Of a DNA stretch of 64,000 nt, positions 45,777-53,829 are shown piece by piece. How positions within the stretch are numbered: the stretch's first letter is position 1; each line of letters opens with the position of its first letter. The notes below the pieces were generated by a model. The model ran no database searches. It was given only the letters and a program-made list of their open reading frames with translations, and was not told the origin of the DNA. Source of the stretch: Gammaproteobacteria bacterium (GTDB taxonomy: Bacteria > Pseudomonadota > Gammaproteobacteria > Xanthomonadales > Wenzhouxiangellaceae); the NCBI GenBank assembly GCA_021772975.1, contig JAJFKY010000014.1, positions 124,001-188,000 of the forward strand, read 5' to 3'. The translations under genes were made by a program, and so were the position numbers.

Positions 45777-48700
45777 TTACAGGCGCACGCTCAAACGGCC
45801 AAACAGGAAGCGGCCGGGAATCCGATAGGTGGAGGGATCGAAGCCATTCAGCGAGCAACTCAGACAGATCGGTGGATCGTTGTCGAAAATGTTTTCCGCA
45901 CCGACGGTCAGGCGGGTATCCGCGCCAAACAGGCGAGTGCTGTAGGTCAAGTGGATGTCATTGTAGATGGTTCCATCCAGCCGGTTGGTGGGCACCTCGC
46001 CGAAACCATCCAGCGGGCTCGGGTCAGGATTGGAACACAGGCCGAGATTCACAAAGCTGTTGGGCGTGCCATCCAGAAAATCCGAACATGATTCGGTTAA
46101 TGAGCTAGTGTACTGCACCGTCCACACCGCACTCCAGTTCTGGAATGACCAGATGAAATTGGCGTTGGACTGCCATTCAGGAATGGCCGAATCATTAAAC
46201 TCAACACCGGCACGGCTGAGTGCCTGGAAGCCGCCGCCGGCTGCCGGCACGATTTCCTCGAATTCCAGCACATGCGTGGTATTCCAATCGATGCCAAAGC
46301 GTCCGAACGCGGTCAATGGACTGGCGTAGTTAAAGCTGAAGTCCAGGCCTGAGGTTTCCAGGCCGCCGATGTTCACCAGGCGGTTATTGAAGCCGGCGAT
46401 ATTGCCACTGGCATTGCGGGTAATATTGCCGCACAGGGTTGGATCATTGGTGCGCACGCACTCGTCCAGAATAAACTGAGCGTCGACCGCGCGGATGGCG
46501 TTGTTGAGTTCATGCCGATACCAGCTGAATTCAAAGTCGAAACTGTCCACCCAGCCAATATCTTCAGTCCAGGCCGGACTGTAAACAAAGCCAGCGGAGT
46601 AGCTGTCAGCCGATTCCGGACCCAATTGCTCATTGCCGCCGGTGATCACCGAAATCTGTGGATTGGCCTGCACCACGCCACCCTGCGGTGCGCCCTGGCC
46701 AACACAGTTCTGCTGCTGATCAGCGGATAGGGTGGGGAAGCTGTCGGTATTGCAGGGATCAGCCAGGGTGGCGTCAAAACGCGACGCGCTGCCAAACAAT
46801 TCACCGATGCTGGGCGCGCGGAAGCCCTCGGCAAAAGTGCCGCGGATCAGCAGGTCCTGGATCGGTTTCCAGCGCAATTCAACTTTGCCGTTGGTGGTCG
46901 AGCCAAAGGTGCTGAAATCCGCGTTGCGGACCGAGCCGGACAATTCCAGCAATTCAGCGCCCGGCACCCCGGACAGCACCGGTATGATCAATTCACCGTA
47001 AATGGAATTAACATCAAAGCCACCCGATGTCGGCAGCGCGGGCACGCCGTTGCTGTTGCCCGCCACCACGATACTGTCCGGCTGGAAGAAACCTTCCTGA
47101 TCACGATGCTCGTAGCCGATCGCAAAACCGACCGGGCCGGCGGGCAGGTCAAACAGGCTGCCGCTGAGGTTGGCGTTGAAGTCAAACAGATCCTGTTCGC
47201 TGGTATCCTGCAGCGGGAAGGTAATAAACGCGAGTTGTTCGGCGGTGATAGTGCCGCCACCACCACCCAGGCGCAGAATGTCATCGCCCTGCTGGCCGCC
47301 AAACAGATTTAATGGAATACAGCCGTTGGCATCGCCGACGCACTCATCAACCGGTCCCAGCGCCTGGGCCAGCCGGTCCAGCCGGAATGAGCCCTGGGTA
47401 ACCTGAGTAGCGGAGTTTTCCGAAAACACCACATTGATATCCCAGTCAAAGTAACGCCCGCCGACCCGGAAACTGCCCTCCAGACCGCCGTTGTAATACA
47501 GGGTATCGACCTGCTGCTCAAAAATACGCGGTCCGGCCTCGGTGGGGCGGCGGCCCAGCAGGACAAAATTGCTGGCGGCATCCAGATCAATACCAAAGGG
47601 GTTAAATGGATTGGTGCCGTCTATGCTGGTGAAATCCGCTGCATTGCCGGTGCCCGCGCCCGGTCCCAGGAAAATGGGTTCCGGGGCAGCCCGATTGAGT
47701 GATTCACGCCGGTTGAACAGAAAACGGGAATAAACCGTGGCATTGAAATCCGCACCCTGGATTAATTCATAGCGGCCCTCAGCCCAGATGGCGGCCCGCT
47801 CGTTGGGGGTCTGCAGCAGATTGAAGGGAGAAAAATTAAAGCGCTCGTCATTGTTGAAAGCGATAAAGTCGCCGGGGAACTGCGGCACGCCATTGGCGAA
47901 AACCGCGCCCTGCGGTGTGGTGACATCACAGCTGCTGGCATCATTATTGCCATCTCCGTCACTGTCTACCGGTGCGCACAGGCCGCCAAAGGTATCCGTG
48001 GTGCCGGGCACATTAAATATAAAACGGCCCTGCGGGGTGCCGGAGCTGCCGCGCGTGACGCCCGTGCCGGGCACCGGGAAGCGCGATTGTTCGCGGTCGC
48101 TGGAACTGATGGTTTTCTGATCGGAGTAACTGACATTGACAAACACCGAAGAGCGCGAAGTGGTGCTGCCCAGCGACAGATCGTATTGCTGCTGAGCCCC
48201 GTCGCCTTCGCCGATAAAATTCCCGGCATAGGCATTCGCCTCCATACCGTCAAAGTCTTTACGGGTAATAATATTGACTACTCCGGCGATCGCGTCCGCG
48301 CCATAGACCGTGGACGCACCATCTTTCAGAATCTCGACACTTTCGATGGCAGTAATCGGGATGGTATTCAAATCCACCGAACTGGGTACGCCACTGGCGG
48401 AGGAACCCGGCACCCAGCGCTGTCCATTGACCAGTACCAGGGTCCGGTTGGAACCCAGGCCGCGCAGATTGAACCTTGTCGCGCCGGCGCCGACACCGCC
48501 GCCGTCAGGTGGAAAACCGAAGTTACCGCTGCTGTTAAAGGCGGTGTTGATAGCAGAGCCGGAAATGGTCAGTTCCTGCAGCACGTCGCCGATTGAAGTC
48601 AATCCGGTGCGTTCCAGGTCTTCACGATCCAGCGTCAGCACCGGTTTGGCGCCGGCAATCTGAGCACGTCGGATACGCGAACCGGTCACCGCGACCCGAT

Positions 48701-48830
48701 CGAGTTCCGCTACTTCTTCATCTTCCGTGGTTTGAGCCTGAGCGGGTCCGCACACGTTGATAGCGGTGGCGGCGAGCAATAAAAATAGTCCCGGTAAGGT
48801 CGGGATCAACCCATACTTCCATGTTTTCAT
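45777..48830 (-). CDS. TonB-dependent outer-membrane receptor
   Basis: A 1017-residue energy-coupled importer. The signal peptide ends GPAQA, and a TonB-box-like [14 protein letters not shown] follows. The plug domain (about 55-165) has [33 protein letters not shown], and [28 protein letters not shown]. The 22-strand barrel ends [15 protein letters not shown]. The many Asn/Gly-rich extracellular loops and the lack of siderophore synthesis genes suggest a peptide, carbohydrate or other polymer substrate; this is inference. GGAAGG lies before the ATG. Confidence 0.95.
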
Positions 48831-49060: not shown

Positions 49061-49930
49061 ATGATGGCTTTAAAATTGGCGGGCACAAGCATGGTAACCA
49101 GGCTAGTTGGCTTTTCGCTGCTGCTGTTGACAACGGTGTTGTCGGCGCAAACCAACCGGGTATTGCTGGTTGGTGACAGCTGGGCCGAACAGCAGTGGGA
49201 TGATCAGGCCCACGCCAGCGTGCTGCTGGCCAATGGCTTTGATCAATATGCGGTGGTGGGCGGAACCACCACTATCAGCGGCTCCACGGCTGCGGAGTGG
49301 GCTTCACCCGGCATGCTGCAGCTGATCGAGGATGCCCTGCTGGCCAATCCGGATATCGATACCGTGCAACTGACCATCGGTGGTAATGATTTTCTGGATG
49401 CCTGGCGGGCTGACTTCAGTCCGCTGCAGCAACTGGCCCTGCAGCAGCAGATCAGTGCTGATCTGCAGGTGATTATTGATTTCATTCTCAATCAGAACCC
49501 GGTTATCGAAGTGGTGCTGAGTTTTTATGATTATCCCAACTTCGTGGATACATTGACCGGTATTTCCGCCATTTTTTGCTTTCCGCTGTGGTCATCGATG
49601 GCGCAGCCAAGCGCGTTTGAATTAAATTCAGCCGCCGTCGAATTTGAAAACTTCTATGCCAACGCCGCCACCGCCAACAGTCGGGTACAGCATGTCAGTC
49701 ATGTTGGTCTGATGCAGTTTAACTTCGGCTTTCCGGACGAGGGCATTCTACCGGGTGACATTCCGCTGCCGGGTGATCTATCCCGGCCCAGCCCGATCGC
49801 AGCCATGCGCAACGGTCTGGACTGTTTTCATCTGGAACCCGAGGGTTACGATCTTCTGATTCAGAATTTATTTGATCAATATCTGAGGAACCGTCTGGAT
49901 ACGGTTTTCAAAGCCAGCTTTGAAGACTGA
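49061..49930 (+). CDS. Secreted SGNH/GDSL-type hydrolase with F-x-x-S-F-E tail
   Basis: A 289-residue protein; an ATG at 49091 may be the true start (signal MVTRLVGFSLLLLTTVLSAQ). Block I is VLLVGDSWAEQQW with the nucleophile Ser. TIGGNDF is block III, and DCFHLEPEGY holds the Asp-x-x-His pair, so the triad looks complete. The family includes lipases, acyl- and carbohydrate esterases. The C-terminus ends LDTVFKASFED, a tail shared in form with the two other secreted proteins at 50079-53829. It is divergent from the TonB receptor gene. Confidence 0.85.
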   Translation: MMALKLAGTSMVTRLVGFSLLLLTTVLSAQTNRVLLVGDSWAEQQWDDQAHASVLLANGFDQYAVVGGTTTISGSTAAEWASPGMLQLIEDALLANPDIDTVQLTIGGNDFLDAWRADFSPLQQLALQQQISADLQVIIDFILNQNPVIEVVLSFYDYPNFVDTLTGISAIFCFPLWSSMAQPSAFELNSAAVEFENFYANAATANSRVQHVSHVGLMQFNFGFPDEGILPGDIPLPGDLSRPSPIAAMRNGLDCFHLEPEGYDLLIQNLFDQYLRNRLDTVFKASFED

Positions 49931-50078
49931 GCGGGCCTGCTCGGGCTTGCGGGTGCGGCTTGAACAGATGTTATACACAGGCCGGGTTGATCGTTCTGCG
50001 GTGCTTCATCATTGACTTTAATGGTTGGCTTGCTCAGGATATTGCGTTGAGCAGGTCAAATGCAGCAGGGACAGAGTT

Positions 50079-51578
50079 ATGAATACTTCAGCACGTTTTT
50101 TTGTCGCGATACTATGGCTGGCCGTGGCAATCAGTCCATCCGTGTTCGCCGCCGATTTACAGACGCATAAAGTAGCCCCCTGGGTACAGCAGCGGCTGGA
50201 CTCACAGCAAGCAGTGGAAGTGATCCTGCAGATGCGTGCCCAGGCTGATCTGAGCGAGCTGCCAGTGACCTCATCGCGTAGCAGAAAAATCGGCTCAGTG
50301 GTGGAGTTGCTGCAGGCTACCGCACAGCAGTCCCAGCCGGCGGTACTAAGCCTGCTGCGTGACGAAGCCGTCGAGCATAAAAGCTTCTGGATCAATAACA
50401 CCATCTGGGTGCGGGCTTCGCGCGAGCTCATCACCACACTCAGTCAACGCGGTGATATCGCGTATATCCACGCCAACCCCAGCGTAGCCGCCGACCTGCC
50501 GCCATGGGATGAATCCGCGCGGCAGAGCTTTGGCAGCGGTATTGAAGCCAGTCTGCAACTGGTCGGCGCACCGGATGTCTGGTCACAGGGAGTTACCGGT
50601 CAGCAGATCGTGATCGGCGGGCAGGACACCGGTTATCAATGGGACCATCCCGCCTTGCTTAACAGCTATCGTGGCTGGGATGGCGCGCAGGCCGTGCATG
50701 ACTACAACTGGCACGATTCAATCCATAGCGGCGGCGGCAGCTGTGGCTCCGATTCACTGTTCCCCTGTGATGACCACAATCATGGCACGCATACCATGGG
50801 CACCATGCTCGGCGATGACGGTGGTACCAACCGGATCGGGATGGCGCCGGGCGCGCGCTGGATAGGCTGCCGTAACATGGACCAGGGCAATGGCACACCC
50901 GCTACCTATACCGAGTGTTTTCAGTGGTTTATAGCGCCGACGGATTTGAATGATCAGAACCCTGACCCGTCGCGTGCGCCGCATGTGATCAATAACTCGT
51001 GGGGCTGTCCGCCCTCCGAAGGCTGTACCAATCCGGCGATTATGCAGGCGGTGGTCGAGAACGTTCGTGCCGCCGGGATTATGGTGGTGGTATCGGCGGG
51101 TAACTCCGGCAGCAGTTGCGGCAGCGTCAGCTCGCCGGCGGCCATTTATGATGCCTCCTTTACCGTCGCCAACACCACCATCAACGACATCATTGCCGGC
51201 AGCAGCAGCCGCGGGCCGGTGACCGTGGACGGTTCCAACCGGCCCAAGCCGGATATTTCCGCCCCCGGTACGGCTATCCGCTCGTCGATTCGCAACAATG
51301 GCTACGCGGTGTTCAGTGGCACCAGTATGTCCGGTCCGCACGTAGCAGGGCATATGGCGTTATTGATGGCTGCTGATCCGGGCCTGATCGGTAATATTGA
51401 TGAACTGGAACGTATTACCCGTGATTCCGCGTTGCAATTGACCAGCGCTCAGGACTGCGGCGGTACCGCCGGCGTATCACCCAATAATGTGTTTGGCTAT
51501 GGCCGTATTCAGACCTTCACGGCATTCAACGGTCTGTTGAGCGAGGAGTTTATGCTGGATGGGTTTGAGGACCTGTAA
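50079..51578 (+). CDS. Secreted subtilisin-family (S8) serine protease with F-x-x-G-F-E tail
   Basis: ATG 50079 starts a clear signal peptide (MNTSARFFVAILWLAVAISPSVFA). The protein has 499 residues. A propeptide-like region (about 25-130, inhibitor I9 layout) precedes the peptidase domain. Catalytic Asp is in GGQDTGYQWDHPAL, His in HGTHTMGTMLGDD and Ser in FSGTSMSGPHVAGHM; the oxyanion Asn is in INNSWGCPP. Several Cys suggest disulfides. The tail ends LSEEFMLDGFEDL. It is likely an extracellular nutrient-scavenging or maturation protease. Confidence 0.95.
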   Translation: MNTSARFFVAILWLAVAISPSVFAADLQTHKVAPWVQQRLDSQQAVEVILQMRAQADLSELPVTSSRSRKIGSVVELLQATAQQSQPAVLSLLRDEAVEHKSFWINNTIWVRASRELITTLSQRGDIAYIHANPSVAADLPPWDESARQSFGSGIEASLQLVGAPDVWSQGVTGQQIVIGGQDTGYQWDHPALLNSYRGWDGAQAVHDYNWHDSIHSGGGSCGSDSLFPCDDHNHGTHTMGTMLGDDGGTNRIGMAPGARWIGCRNMDQGNGTPATYTECFQWFIAPTDLNDQNPDPSRAPHVINNSWGCPPSEGCTNPAIMQAVVENVRAAGIMVVVSAGNSGSSCGSVSSPAAIYDASFTVANTTINDIIAGSSSRGPVTVDGSNRPKPDISAPGTAIRSSIRNNGYAVFSGTSMSGPHVAGHMALLMAADPGLIGNIDELERITRDSALQLTSAQDCGGTAGVSPNNVFGYGRIQTFTAFNGLLSEEFMLDGFEDL

Positions 51579-51785
51579 GCGCGCGATTCTGACGGCTACC
51601 AAGTTAGCAGCCGCAGGCTGATTCAGCCGGCTGCCCGATAGCCGCCAAGCGCTGGCGTTATTGCGCCGTAAAAGCTACAGCCTGAGCTACCTCAGGCTTG
51701 CATTCCATCCGAGCTTGAGCACGCAGTCAGTCAGTTGATTCTGGTTGGGCAATCGCCTGTCGGCCATTCACCCCTGTGGTTTTAA

Positions 51786-52262
51786 TCAAGCGCTATGACC
51801 GCCGCCGGGCAGGGTGGTGGCAAGATAGCGGTCAAAATCCGGATTATCGCCGGCATTCAGTACTGTATCTATCCAGGCCTGACGCTCGAAAATATGCACT
51901 TCCAGCTCATAGGCACAGGCCATGATGGTCGGATCGGCCACCGTGGTGATCTGCTCAGGCTGGTCCAGCGGCGAAGCAAAAACCATGTTATGCAGAATAT
52001 CCTGATGTTCCCACCAGTTGAGCAACAGCCAGTTGGCCATGGTGCCCTGATGAATAACCATAAAGCCCATACCATAGCGGTGGTCATTGCAGGCTGGCTG
52101 GGGCAGATGGGGGGGCAGCAGTTGGCACACCGCTGCGGTGATTGCATCAAACGAGGCAGCCTGGCTGGCGGCCAGACCATACACTTTCAGTTGCCAGTCA
52201 TGCGCCTGATGCAGTTTCAGAAAGCGCGGCTGGCGTGACACATAAGCATCAAAACGGGGCAT
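51786..52262 (-). CDS. Conserved-looking cytosolic protein of unknown function
   Basis: From ATG 52262 (AAGGAC nine bases upstream) it has 158 residues, MPRFDAYVSRQPRFLKLHQAHDWQ.... There is no signal peptide or membrane segment. Aromatic and His-rich stretches (GFMVIHQGTMANWLLLNWWEHQDIL, in parts FMVIHQGTMANW and LLLNWWEHQDIL) and a CAYELEVHIFERQAW segment suggest a compact alpha/beta fold. A longer frame to 52391 would overlap the divergent beta-helix gene and is less likely. I do not recognise the family. Confidence 0.65.
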   Translation of the reverse strand: MPRFDAYVSRQPRFLKLHQAHDWQLKVYGLAASQAASFDAITAAVCQLLPPHLPQPACNDHRYGMGFMVIHQGTMANWLLLNWWEHQDILHNMVFASPLDQPEQITTVADPTIMACAYELEVHIFERQAWIDTVLNAGDNPDFDRYLATTLPGGGHSA

Positions 52263-52347
52263 ATTCAGTCCTTGATCTAAGCTTGAAGGTAGGCTGCTAT
52301 TATAACCTTTACCGGCCCTTAAACCGGCCTGAACCAGCAGGATATGT

Positions 52348-53829
52348 GTGGATATTATGTTACGACCCGGCAATTCGATCAGCACTTTCAAGTGGATGGG
52401 TAGATTGGCGTTAGCCTGGGCAGTGCTATGTTGCTGGCCTGTGACAGCGGGCAGTGGTGGCGTGTTTTATGTAGCTGAAAATGGGGATGACACGAGTGGG
52501 GATGGCAGCATCGCCAAGCCCTGGCGAACCATCACGTTTGCCCTGGACAGTGTCCCGGATGCCAGCACCGTGCTGGTCAGGCCCGGGTTGTATAACGGCC
52601 GTATCCGTATCCGTGGGATTTTTGATCAGGGCGTCAATGTGCGTTCGGAAATACCCTATCAGGCCAGATTGCGGCACACGGCCACCGTCATCACGGTGTT
52701 TGAAAATGCCCGCAATATCACTCTGCACGGTTTTGATATTGCCCATGCCGGTCCTGGTGCAGGTGGGCTGGTGGTGCAGATTCAGGATCTGGGCGGCGTG
52801 ACCGACATCACGCTGGAAAACAATATTCTGCATGACAGCTATAACAACGATATTTTAAAAATCAATAACGGTGTCAGCAATATCGTGGTGCGCGGCAACC
52901 TGTTCTATAACCAGCAGGGTTCGGATGAGCATATCGACATCAACAGCGTGGCCGATGTACTGGTGGAAGACAATATATTTTTTAATAATTTCGCGGCTTC
53001 CGGACGTACCAATAATAACGATACCTCAGGCTATATCGTGATCAAGGATTCCAACGCCGATGATGATATTTATATCGGCGCCAGAAATGTCACCGTGCGA
53101 CGCAATATTTTTCTGAACTGGCAAGGCAGCGCCGGCGCGAATTTTGTATTGTGCGGGGAAGACGGACAGCCGTTCTATGAGGCCTTCGATATCCTGGTGG
53201 AAAATAATCTGATGCTGGGCAACAGCAGCAATGCGATCCGTGCACCGTTTGGTGTCAAGGGTTGCCGTGATGTGGTTTTTCGCGCCAATACCGTGGCGGG
53301 TGATATGCCGGGCAATGCCTTTGCGATGCGGTTGAATCGTGAGGGCGCCAATCCACCACTGGATAATATTTTTTTCTACAACAACATCTGGTCAGACCCC
53401 AGCGGCAGCATGCAGGACTTCAGTGATACGCCGGTGAACGACACGTTGACCGTTGAACTACTGAATAATCAATACTGGAACGCCGGTCAGGCATTGCCGG
53501 AGAGCCCCGGTGATCTGGTCAATCCATCCGATGATCTGGCGCTGCTTGAAGCCGCACCGGGATTGCCGCTGCAAAATAATATTCAGACGCCCTACTGGAT
53601 AGCGGCGCAGAATATATTCAATGGCGGTTATGCAACAATTCGTGAGGCTTTTACGGCACTGGCCAAAAATTATGGCCTGCCTGCCGCCGCCAGCCCGGGC
53701 ATTGGTCAGGCGCTTGCGGCACAGATGCCAGTCGATGACTTACTGGGTTTGGTCCGCGGCGCGGATCCGGATATCGGTGCGCTCGAGCAGGGGCAGGAGA
53801 CGTTTTTCCAGGATGGTTTTGAACCATAG
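52348..53829 (+). CDS. Secreted right-handed parallel beta-helix protein with F-x-x-G-F-E tail
   Basis: A 493-residue protein with a signal peptide near residues 17-35 (LALAWAVLCCWPVTAGSGG). The DUF1565-type entry FYVAENGDDTSGDGSIAKPW is followed by R-TITFAL. Then come PbH1-type rungs rich in N-N and I-x-V (ITLENNILHDSYNNDI, IVVRGNLFYNQ, VLVEDNIFFNN, VTVRRNIFLNW), as in pectate-lyase-like or carbohydrate-binding helices. No lyase catalytic set can be assigned. The tail ends QETFFQDGFEP, like the SGNH and S8 proteins upstream. Confidence 0.88.
   Translation: MDIMLRPGNSISTFKWMGRLALAWAVLCCWPVTAGSGGVFYVAENGDDTSGDGSIAKPWRTITFALDSVPDASTVLVRPGLYNGRIRIRGIFDQGVNVRSEIPYQARLRHTATVITVFENARNITLHGFDIAHAGPGAGGLVVQIQDLGGVTDITLENNILHDSYNNDILKINNGVSNIVVRGNLFYNQQGSDEHIDINSVADVLVEDNIFFNNFAASGRTNNNDTSGYIVIKDSNADDDIYIGARNVTVRRNIFLNWQGSAGANFVLCGEDGQPFYEAFDILVENNLMLGNSSNAIRAPFGVKGCRDVVFRANTVAGDMPGNAFAMRLNREGANPPLDNIFFYNNIWSDPSGSMQDFSDTPVNDTLTVELLNNQYWNAGQALPESPGDLVNPSDDLALLEAAPGLPLQNNIQTPYWIAAQNIFNGGYATIREAFTALAKNYGLPAAASPGIGQALAAQMPVDDLLGLVRGADPDIGALEQGQETFFQDGFEP

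Follow-up and report, generated by a model that had tools for sequence, protein, structure and literature searches.

Three tailed genes in a Wenzhouxiangellaceae genome

We analysed a stretch of 64,000 nucleotides (hereafter the window) from a gammaproteobacterium of the Wenzhouxiangellaceae (assembly GCA_021772975.1, contig JAJFKY010000014.1, positions 124,001 to 188,000), in which three genes for exported proteins carry a similar short peptide tail near the C-terminus. The first gene (49061..49930, plus strand) encodes an SGNH/GDSL hydrolase (Pfam Lipase_GDSL_2, PF13472, 2.6e-8) ending DTVFKASFED, and its tail VFKASFED (49904..49927), in which Ala-Ser replaces Asp-Gly, has its motif 1 residue before the C-terminus. 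The second (50025..51578, plus strand) encodes an S8 subtilase (Pfam Peptidase_S8, PF00082, 2.1e-36) that ends SEEFMLDGFEDL and whose real start is probably about 18 codons into the longest open reading frame (ORF); its tail is EFMLDGFEDL (51546..51575). The third (52348..53829, plus strand) encodes an exported protein, first read as a beta-helix protein, that gave no Pfam match above the cut-off (DUF1565 appeared sub-threshold only) and ends ETFFQDGFEP, with the tail TFFQDGFEP at 53800..53826. All three products carry a signal peptide as judged by a crude rule. Between the second and third tailed genes lies a minus-strand ORF (51786-52391), and a large gene resembling, by sequence, a TonB-dependent receptor (45777-48830, minus strand) is divergent from the tailed genes and adjoins them; it possibly serves the uptake of their products.

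The original prediction was that these three proteins of differing folds share F-x-x-[GS]-F-E exactly at the C-terminus as a sorting, secretion or processing tag, of a kind also present in Xanthomonadales-like bacteria and with no known machinery described for it. The three ORFs and their tails are indeed present in the translations, and since the Pfam assignments differ among the three proteins (GDSL, S8 and no match above the cut-off), their families differ as well. The formula fits the hydrolase and the beta-helix protein and fails for the subtilase, which reads F-M-L-D-G-F-E with Met at the first Phe of the formula, and the tails are not exactly terminal, the motifs stopping 1-2 residues before the end. 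Aligned on Phe-Glu, the three tails read hydrophobic - [FM] - x - [DA] - [GS] - F - E, and we replaced the literal formula, which the subtilase does not fit, by a wider consensus, [DE]-x-[ILVFM]-F-x-[DN]-[GS]-F-E, usually followed by 0-9 residues. A search of the whole window for F-x-D-x-F-E gave FQDGFE at 53806-53823 as the sole site. No NCBIfam or Pfam model of the tail matched the three tailed proteins of the window at E<=1, a search that a very short model could escape.

Position, form and passengers of the motif

We searched for exact F-x-D-G-F-E as a codon pattern without a stop, which leaves the position of a site free, and used the same pattern reversed as a chance control (genomes, loci and families are cited below by G, L and f handles and one genus as g6; this genome is G000). 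This genome holds 16 exact sites versus 1 reversed-pattern site (70 versus 20 when one mismatch is allowed), and 15 of the 16 finish 0-10 residues ahead of a stop. When 30 relatives are added, 30 of the 31 genomes have the exact motif, with a maximum of 77 sites versus a control of 1. A stop follows within 25 residues at 77 of 87 exact sites in stretches of seven genomes from six families; a wider locus set, which leaves out scan loci L080-L110, gave 110 of 136 unique sites, a less clean figure because the set includes some loci found with stop-containing patterns. Of 814 called genes, 94 have a looser class of the motif within their final 30 residues, with 13 occurrences among 327,012 upstream residues, which corresponds to an approximately hundredfold enrichment at the protein ends compared with the remaining residues. 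The 814 genes come from 20 stretches of this genome, the window and stretches from six other genomes, which were picked for holding a site, so that the share of tailed genes among them does not represent whole genomes, while the position is unbiased.

The codons of the tail vary synonymously, indicating that conservation acts at the protein level. Counting back from Glu in 99 tails, position -5 is Phe in 88, position -6 is I/L/V/F/M in 95 and position -8 is Asp/Glu in 50 (positions -6 and -8 played no part in finding the tails); Asp (75) or Asn (14) is followed by Gly (85) or Ser (13). Glu is the last residue in 38 tails, 1-9 residues follow it in 57 and 12-21 residues in 4.

The crude rule called a signal peptide in 74 of the 92 tailed genes and in 224 of the 629 untailed ones (p = 4e-16), so that most tailed proteins have the Sec/Tat signal peptide that is a trait of type II secretion system (T2SS) substrates. 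With this excess and with 77 of 87 sites near the stop, the claim survived the test proposed for it, namely whether the motif is any commoner at the C-termini of exported proteins than elsewhere. We scanned 65 of the 92 tailed proteins for families and found 61 Pfam families, the commonest of them in 5 proteins; the mean column identity of the 65 is 7%, with FxDGFE as the consensus tail of a set that was chosen for having one. The tail is hence a C-terminal region common to otherwise unrelated exported proteins, and we rejected the idea that it is the end of one shared domain on the grounds of the 7% identity and the many Pfam families. Among the 25 commonest families are FG-GAP repeat and beta-helix proteins, M14, M36-like and S8 peptidases, an ExeM/NucH-type nuclease and choice-of-anchor B, D and Q proteins. 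Neither the 25 most frequent of the 48 NCBIfam families (E<=0.001) nor the 25 most frequent of the 61 Pfam families included a model of the tail itself; here too a very short model could escape. Two tailed proteins (L172, f9; L199, f8) contain the sequence NRNPFVDHPEW, by which we take them to be endonuclease I-like secreted DNases.

Four proteins from four families of the order carry the motif right after the signal peptide (L333, which has it twice, L153, L336 and L115). Two of these loci, L333 and L336, had been fetched for neighbouring sites, and L153 and L115 lay in the regular stretches; for L115, which the rule did not score, the signal peptide was called by eye. A further candidate, L059, was scored N-terminal by the rule and dropped, its site lying within a TonB-dependent receptor-like protein. 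At L334 the C-terminal end holds two copies of the motif 13 residues apart, at L335 a pair of motifs lies 77 residues ahead of the frame end, and the remaining non-C-terminal sites fall within proteins or in antisense-looking frames. In L333, GDTSAW follows the motif at the mature N-terminus; our guess is that the tag arose from, or mimics, the first strand of a lectin-like domain. At L074 of this genome (contig C18, 115000-124970) we observed a giant gene, with a frame open over nearly all of the 9,971 bases (3,323 codons).

Co-occurrence with a PDZ-type secretion system

Genomes from outside the order, in a sample of 369 drawn from the class, hold 0-7 sites, with 0-3 for the reversed control (table read by eye). 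Within the order (299 genomes) the counts are bimodal, and 230 genomes have at least one site. A stricter pattern ending in a stop matched in 18 of 80 tail-poor genomes, several of the matches having TGG instead of a stop or lying in very short frames; true tails among the tail-poor genomes inspected belong to families f8 and f9, and a search for a single tag beside the machine found some isolated tails in tail-poor genomes. A scan of named records gave 31 loci, in which long-frame tails are mostly from Lysobacterales, including the type strain Chiayiivirga flava DSM 24163 (G463; 65 exact sites), and several short-frame matches in records of other phyla resemble chance hits. The link with Xanthomonadales-like bacteria in the original prediction therefore holds, the rest of the class being near background.

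A secretion gene co-occurring with the tail had been suggested as something to look for, and the candidate that we found is a T2SS with a PDZ-containing GspC. A search for GspD gave matches above the cut-off in 75 of 77 genomes and suggested two classes of system, which we mapped from 40 stretches (some maps are incomplete, and L213, L223 and L225 were read as plain ORFs). The system termed here T2SS-B has the order gspE-F-G-H-I-J-K-L-M-N-D, which we take to be the xps order of Xanthomonas, and is present in most mapped genomes. T2SS-A has the order rhlB-gspC-gspD-gspE-gspF-ftsE-ftsX-rpoH and occurs in tail-rich genomes and in g6; its pseudopilin genes (gspG onward) are at a separate locus, which apparently continues from gspH to gspN in the clearest maps. 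Of these pseudopilins the family search covered GspG alone, and a strong class of GspG (172-194 bits) was found in all 14 genomes tried that have the GspC of T2SS-A (GspC-A) and in two Chiayiivirga records (one being G463 again), and in none of 9 genomes without GspC-A. The 4.7-Mb genome G401 (f9) has neither a GspD nor a GspG match and 4 exact sites, an apparent loss of type II secretion. In an f8 genome with T2SS-A, a large protein (L225:16300-19899, minus strand) ends NVPTLSWQGMLAMFMLMLFGFYRYQRRSFS, presumably resembling the known IPTL-CTERM endings, so that this one genome may combine two kinds of tail.

In this genome gspC adjoins gspD, and GspC-A matches Pfam T2SSC (1.1e-23) and PDZ_6 (3.8e-8); GspC-A of three more genomes matches T2SSC, two of them with a PDZ domain above the cut-off. 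The best solved relatives of GspC-A are OutC (2e-39), the PDZ domain of PulC (3e-20) and EpsC (9e-20), its structure model matches the EpsC PDZ domain and a GspC HR domain, and the NCBIfam GspC model scores 93.3 bits on it, below the cut-off of 101.6. Three Xps-type GspC counterparts gave no Pfam match; in XpsC, a single helix is described in place of the PDZ fold of OutC and EpsC (PMC11981180).

A profile of GspC-A (alignment A1) was run on the 299 genomes of the order, and 115 scored above the cut-off of E = 1e-36. Excluding g6, genomes with at least five sites number 81 with GspC-A and 10 without, and genomes with fewer than five sites 8 with and 170 without. When all 299 are taken and g6 is counted by F-x-D-G-F-E, the same four numbers are 81, 10, 34 and 174; per genus, by majority rule and with g6 counted as tailed, both tail and GspC-A are found in 33, the tail only in 2, GspC-A only in 4 and neither in 46. 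Within f2, G463 (65 sites) and G600 (49) alone have GspC-A and alone have more than 3 sites, and within f12 the ten genomes with at least 9 sites are ten of the eleven with GspC-A. Of the 10 genomes with at least five sites and no GspC-A match, two show traces of the system (a type-A GspE in G487, a type-A-like fragment in G017), for which an assembly gap is the likely cause, and three more (G425, G434, G546) are 77-90% complete.

Genus g6 has few F-x-D-G-F-E sites, with GspC-A in 26 of its 30 genomes. When any residue was allowed at the Gly position, 21 of 30 matches in g6 were F-x-D-R-F-E before a true stop (13 genomes), a few others having D-S, D-A or D-Q. The same relaxed pattern in 33 other genomes gave F-x-D-R-F-E tails in 0 of 8 matches, and none of the four F-x-D-R-F-E sites in the fetched stretches of this genome is a tail (all lie at least 35 residues from the stop). 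A form of this kind is also associated with Wenzhouxiangella, the genus that g6 may represent.

Several observations weigh against a tie between the tail and T2SS-A. The Fisher value for the table without g6, 2e-47, is uncorrected for descent, and several losses may be shared. Four f8 genomes (G469, G438, G536, G501) have 15 to 5 sites without GspC-A, no type-A GspE was found in G469, G438 or G536, and the stop-pattern sites inspected in these genomes (five of G469, one each of G438, G536 and G501) end long frames; within f8, GspC-A and tails are barely associated (phi 0.21). One more genome, G553, has 5 sites and no GspC-A. Conversely, GspC-A is accompanied by 0-3 sites in G439, G454, G496, G511, G523, G533, G540 and G593 (two true tails were seen in G533, the single stop-pattern site of G439 is in a 17-residue frame, and G593 has a single site). 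Just below the GspC cut-off are G610 (7e-35) and then nine f2 and f12 genomes (4e-27 to 3e-17), the nine presumably matching through another T2SS; a looser cut-off would add these ten f2/f12 genomes, all with 0-3 sites. Going by the class counts, most gammaproteobacteria with a PDZ-type T2SS must presumably lack the tail. Finally, a second gene, c11, fits as well as GspC outside g6 and f8 (phi 0.92 versus 0.91) and covers the f8 exceptions.

The gene c11 encodes an exported protein of an unannotated conserved family (at most 7 matches per genome) and lies just after gspD of T2SS-B. Outside g6, 87 of the 91 genomes with at least five sites have it, as do 28 genomes with fewer. Its structure model has a mean pLDDT of 57 and matched no PDB entry with E at or below 0.001; a hint of a galectin-like lectin fold (E 0.007 and worse) was not used. 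In this genome (L210:10827-19901, contig C8), a small lipoprotein-like gene lies 3' of the T2SS-B gspD together with c11, a gene for another exported protein, one for a PPIC-type isomerase and genes for Wzm/Wzt-like polysaccharide export; further genes there look by eye like glycosyltransferases, and the region may be a module for a surface polymer linked to secretion. As c11 matches the tail as well as GspC does, the profile alone cannot name the reader. We prefer T2SS-A because genomes of f12, f2 and f8 with T2SS-B only are mostly without tails, even when they have c11 (G025, G429), and because GspC-A has a PDZ domain of the kind that the literature ties to substrate choice. As a reader, c11 was kept only within the alternatives considered below, being present in the 28 tail-poor genomes as well; its predicted fold is too weak to be of help.

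A proposed docking signal and its alternatives

We consider it almost certain that the tail is a real and functional linear tag on exported proteins across the order. The idea that the motif is a chance pattern or a functionless relic of a shared C-terminal domain has in its favour that the motif is short and that an internal form, FADGFETGDTSAW (L333), resembles by eye the start of a lectin-like domain. It was already disfavoured, and is very improbable, given the hundredfold enrichment, the mostly clean presence or absence among genera, the Gly to Arg shift in one genus and the tails on 65 otherwise non-aligning proteins.

Our preferred reading, to which we assign a probability of roughly 0.45 from sequence comparisons, is that T2SS-A reads the tag as a docking signal. 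Once exported and folded, a protein would dock by its exposed tag on T2SS-A in the periplasm, where the likeliest reader is the GspC PDZ domain, the base of GspD or both; the folded protein would then exit through the secretin, and removal of the tag would be unnecessary. Of the three functions first proposed, the sequences point to sorting or secretion, and processing is weakened by the N-terminal copies. PDZ proteases such as DegS bind C-terminal peptide ligands, short hydrophobic peptides that the present tail resembles in lying near the C-terminus and in having a periplasmic PDZ domain as its proposed reader. Unlike those ligands, the present motif is often trailed by further residues and has N-terminal copies, and recognition of the carboxylate is therefore unlikely: the distance from the motif to the free carboxylate is not constant, with extensions of 0-21 residues. 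Among T2SS substrates, VesB is reported to require the PDZ domain of EpsC, in a paper whose authors point out that T2SSs have no known universal linear signal (PMC12369372), and a nine-residue loop of PelI is reported to act as a signal via GspC and GspD, in a paper that likewise states that substrates have no common linear sequences (PMC7949064). As with PelI loop 3 and the Ig-fold of VesB, an exposed element and a GspC-dependent export (through PDZ for VesB, with GspD as well for PelI) would be at work; those elements are described as structural and protein-specific (PMC7949064, PMC12369372), whereas the present motif is linear and common to many proteins. More tentatively, the tag may be a transferable linear type II secretion signal, the first of its kind, read by PDZ-GspC at either mature end, with the F-x-D-R-F-E variant of g6 marking co-evolution.

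The main rival to docking on T2SS-A, which we regard as rather unlikely, is that a T2SS exports these proteins without needing the tag, which then anchors them to the outer membrane or to a polymer on the cell surface via a receptor. Some passengers are of families known elsewhere with surface anchors: proteins with choice-of-anchor B, D and Q domains, and M36 peptidases, which match NCBIfam models of rhombosortase-, myxosortase- and type IX secretion system (T9SS)-dependent proteins, below full scope. Wenzhouxiangella strain AB-CW3, whose genus is g6 only by our guess, is reported to show no proteolytic activity in the medium, and its authors assume outer-membrane-anchored proteases and suggest a T2SS (PMC7691419). 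The location of c11 near a peptidyl-prolyl isomerase and the Wzm/Wzt-like exporter in this genome, and its presence in 87 of 91 tail-rich genomes including the f8 exceptions, would also suit retention. A receptor did not emerge, however, and c11 also occurs in the 28 genomes with fewer than five sites, among them G429, which has neither T2SS-A nor an exact site, and its model is poor. That the Xps-type T2SS-B or a component of its locus reads the tag, with T2SS-A as a fellow traveller, is improbable. In mapped genomes c11 marks the T2SS-B locus, all 6 f8 genomes with at least five sites have c11 (2 of the 6 have GspC-A), and T2SS-B was mapped in G469; against this, f12 and f2 genomes with the Xps-type system and without T2SS-A have no tails, and no tails were found in G025 and G429, which have c11 and lack GspC-A.

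We also think it improbable that a dedicated peptidase or transpeptidase cleaves these proteins at the motif and attaches them to a lipid or sugar, in the manner of an exosortase, rhombosortase, myxosortase or T9SS sortase, even though a variable number of residues (usually 0-9) follows the fixed motif and some passenger families are C-terminally processed elsewhere. With 0-9 residues past the motif in 95 of 99 tails, 38 of them ending at Glu, and 12-21 in the other 4, there is no room in the 95 for a transmembrane helix followed by a basic cluster; neither was found, and we rejected a tripartite CTERM signal accordingly. A C-terminal cut is weakened further because the motif stands at the mature N-terminus of four proteins, where a cut would free the whole protein, and these copies, although few, argue for a docking motif instead. 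Of the neighbour clusters, 11 lie near tailed genes in at least three genomes, and no peptidase was seen among eight representatives viewed by eye (first 150 residues; no peptidase profile was run); the search for a dedicated peptidase by this route was given up, the representatives being generic (an ABC ATPase, a LysR-like protein, a response regulator and others).

T9SS signals are C-terminal domains of approximately 70-100 residues that serve the secretion of folded proteins in Bacteroidota. The present tail resembles them as a possible C-terminal secretion signal with a shared M36 passenger, and differs in its length of about nine residues and in belonging to Gammaproteobacteria. GlyGly-CTERM, the rhombosortase signal, is likewise a short C-terminal region on unrelated exported proteins of species with a T2SS (PMC3237569), and some passengers are similar (M36 peptidases, the ExeM/NucH nuclease). 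It is described as a motif, a transmembrane helix and a basic cluster cut by a rhomboid protease, and is reported to accompany T2SSs in general without a link to any subclass (PMC3237569), whereas the present tail is the motif alone and occurs mostly with one subclass. The PEP-CTERM/exosortase and MYXO-CTERM/myxosortase systems similarly have many tagged proteins per genome, many to one (PMC1569441, PMC11980579); unlike theirs, the present tail has no helix, basic tail or invariant Cys and can be N-terminal. The tail was not found described in the literature that we searched (C-terminal sorting signals, Xanthomonadales, DGFE tails and neighbouring questions), nor was a machinery for it, in agreement with the original prediction.

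How a T2SS chooses its folded cargo is an open question, and the tail makes this question testable: a single nine-residue motif recurs on many proteins of a genome, a matching PDZ machine accompanies it, and a natural variant lineage exists. Even if the tag serves surface retention only, it marks a large uncharacterised set of exported proteins across the order.

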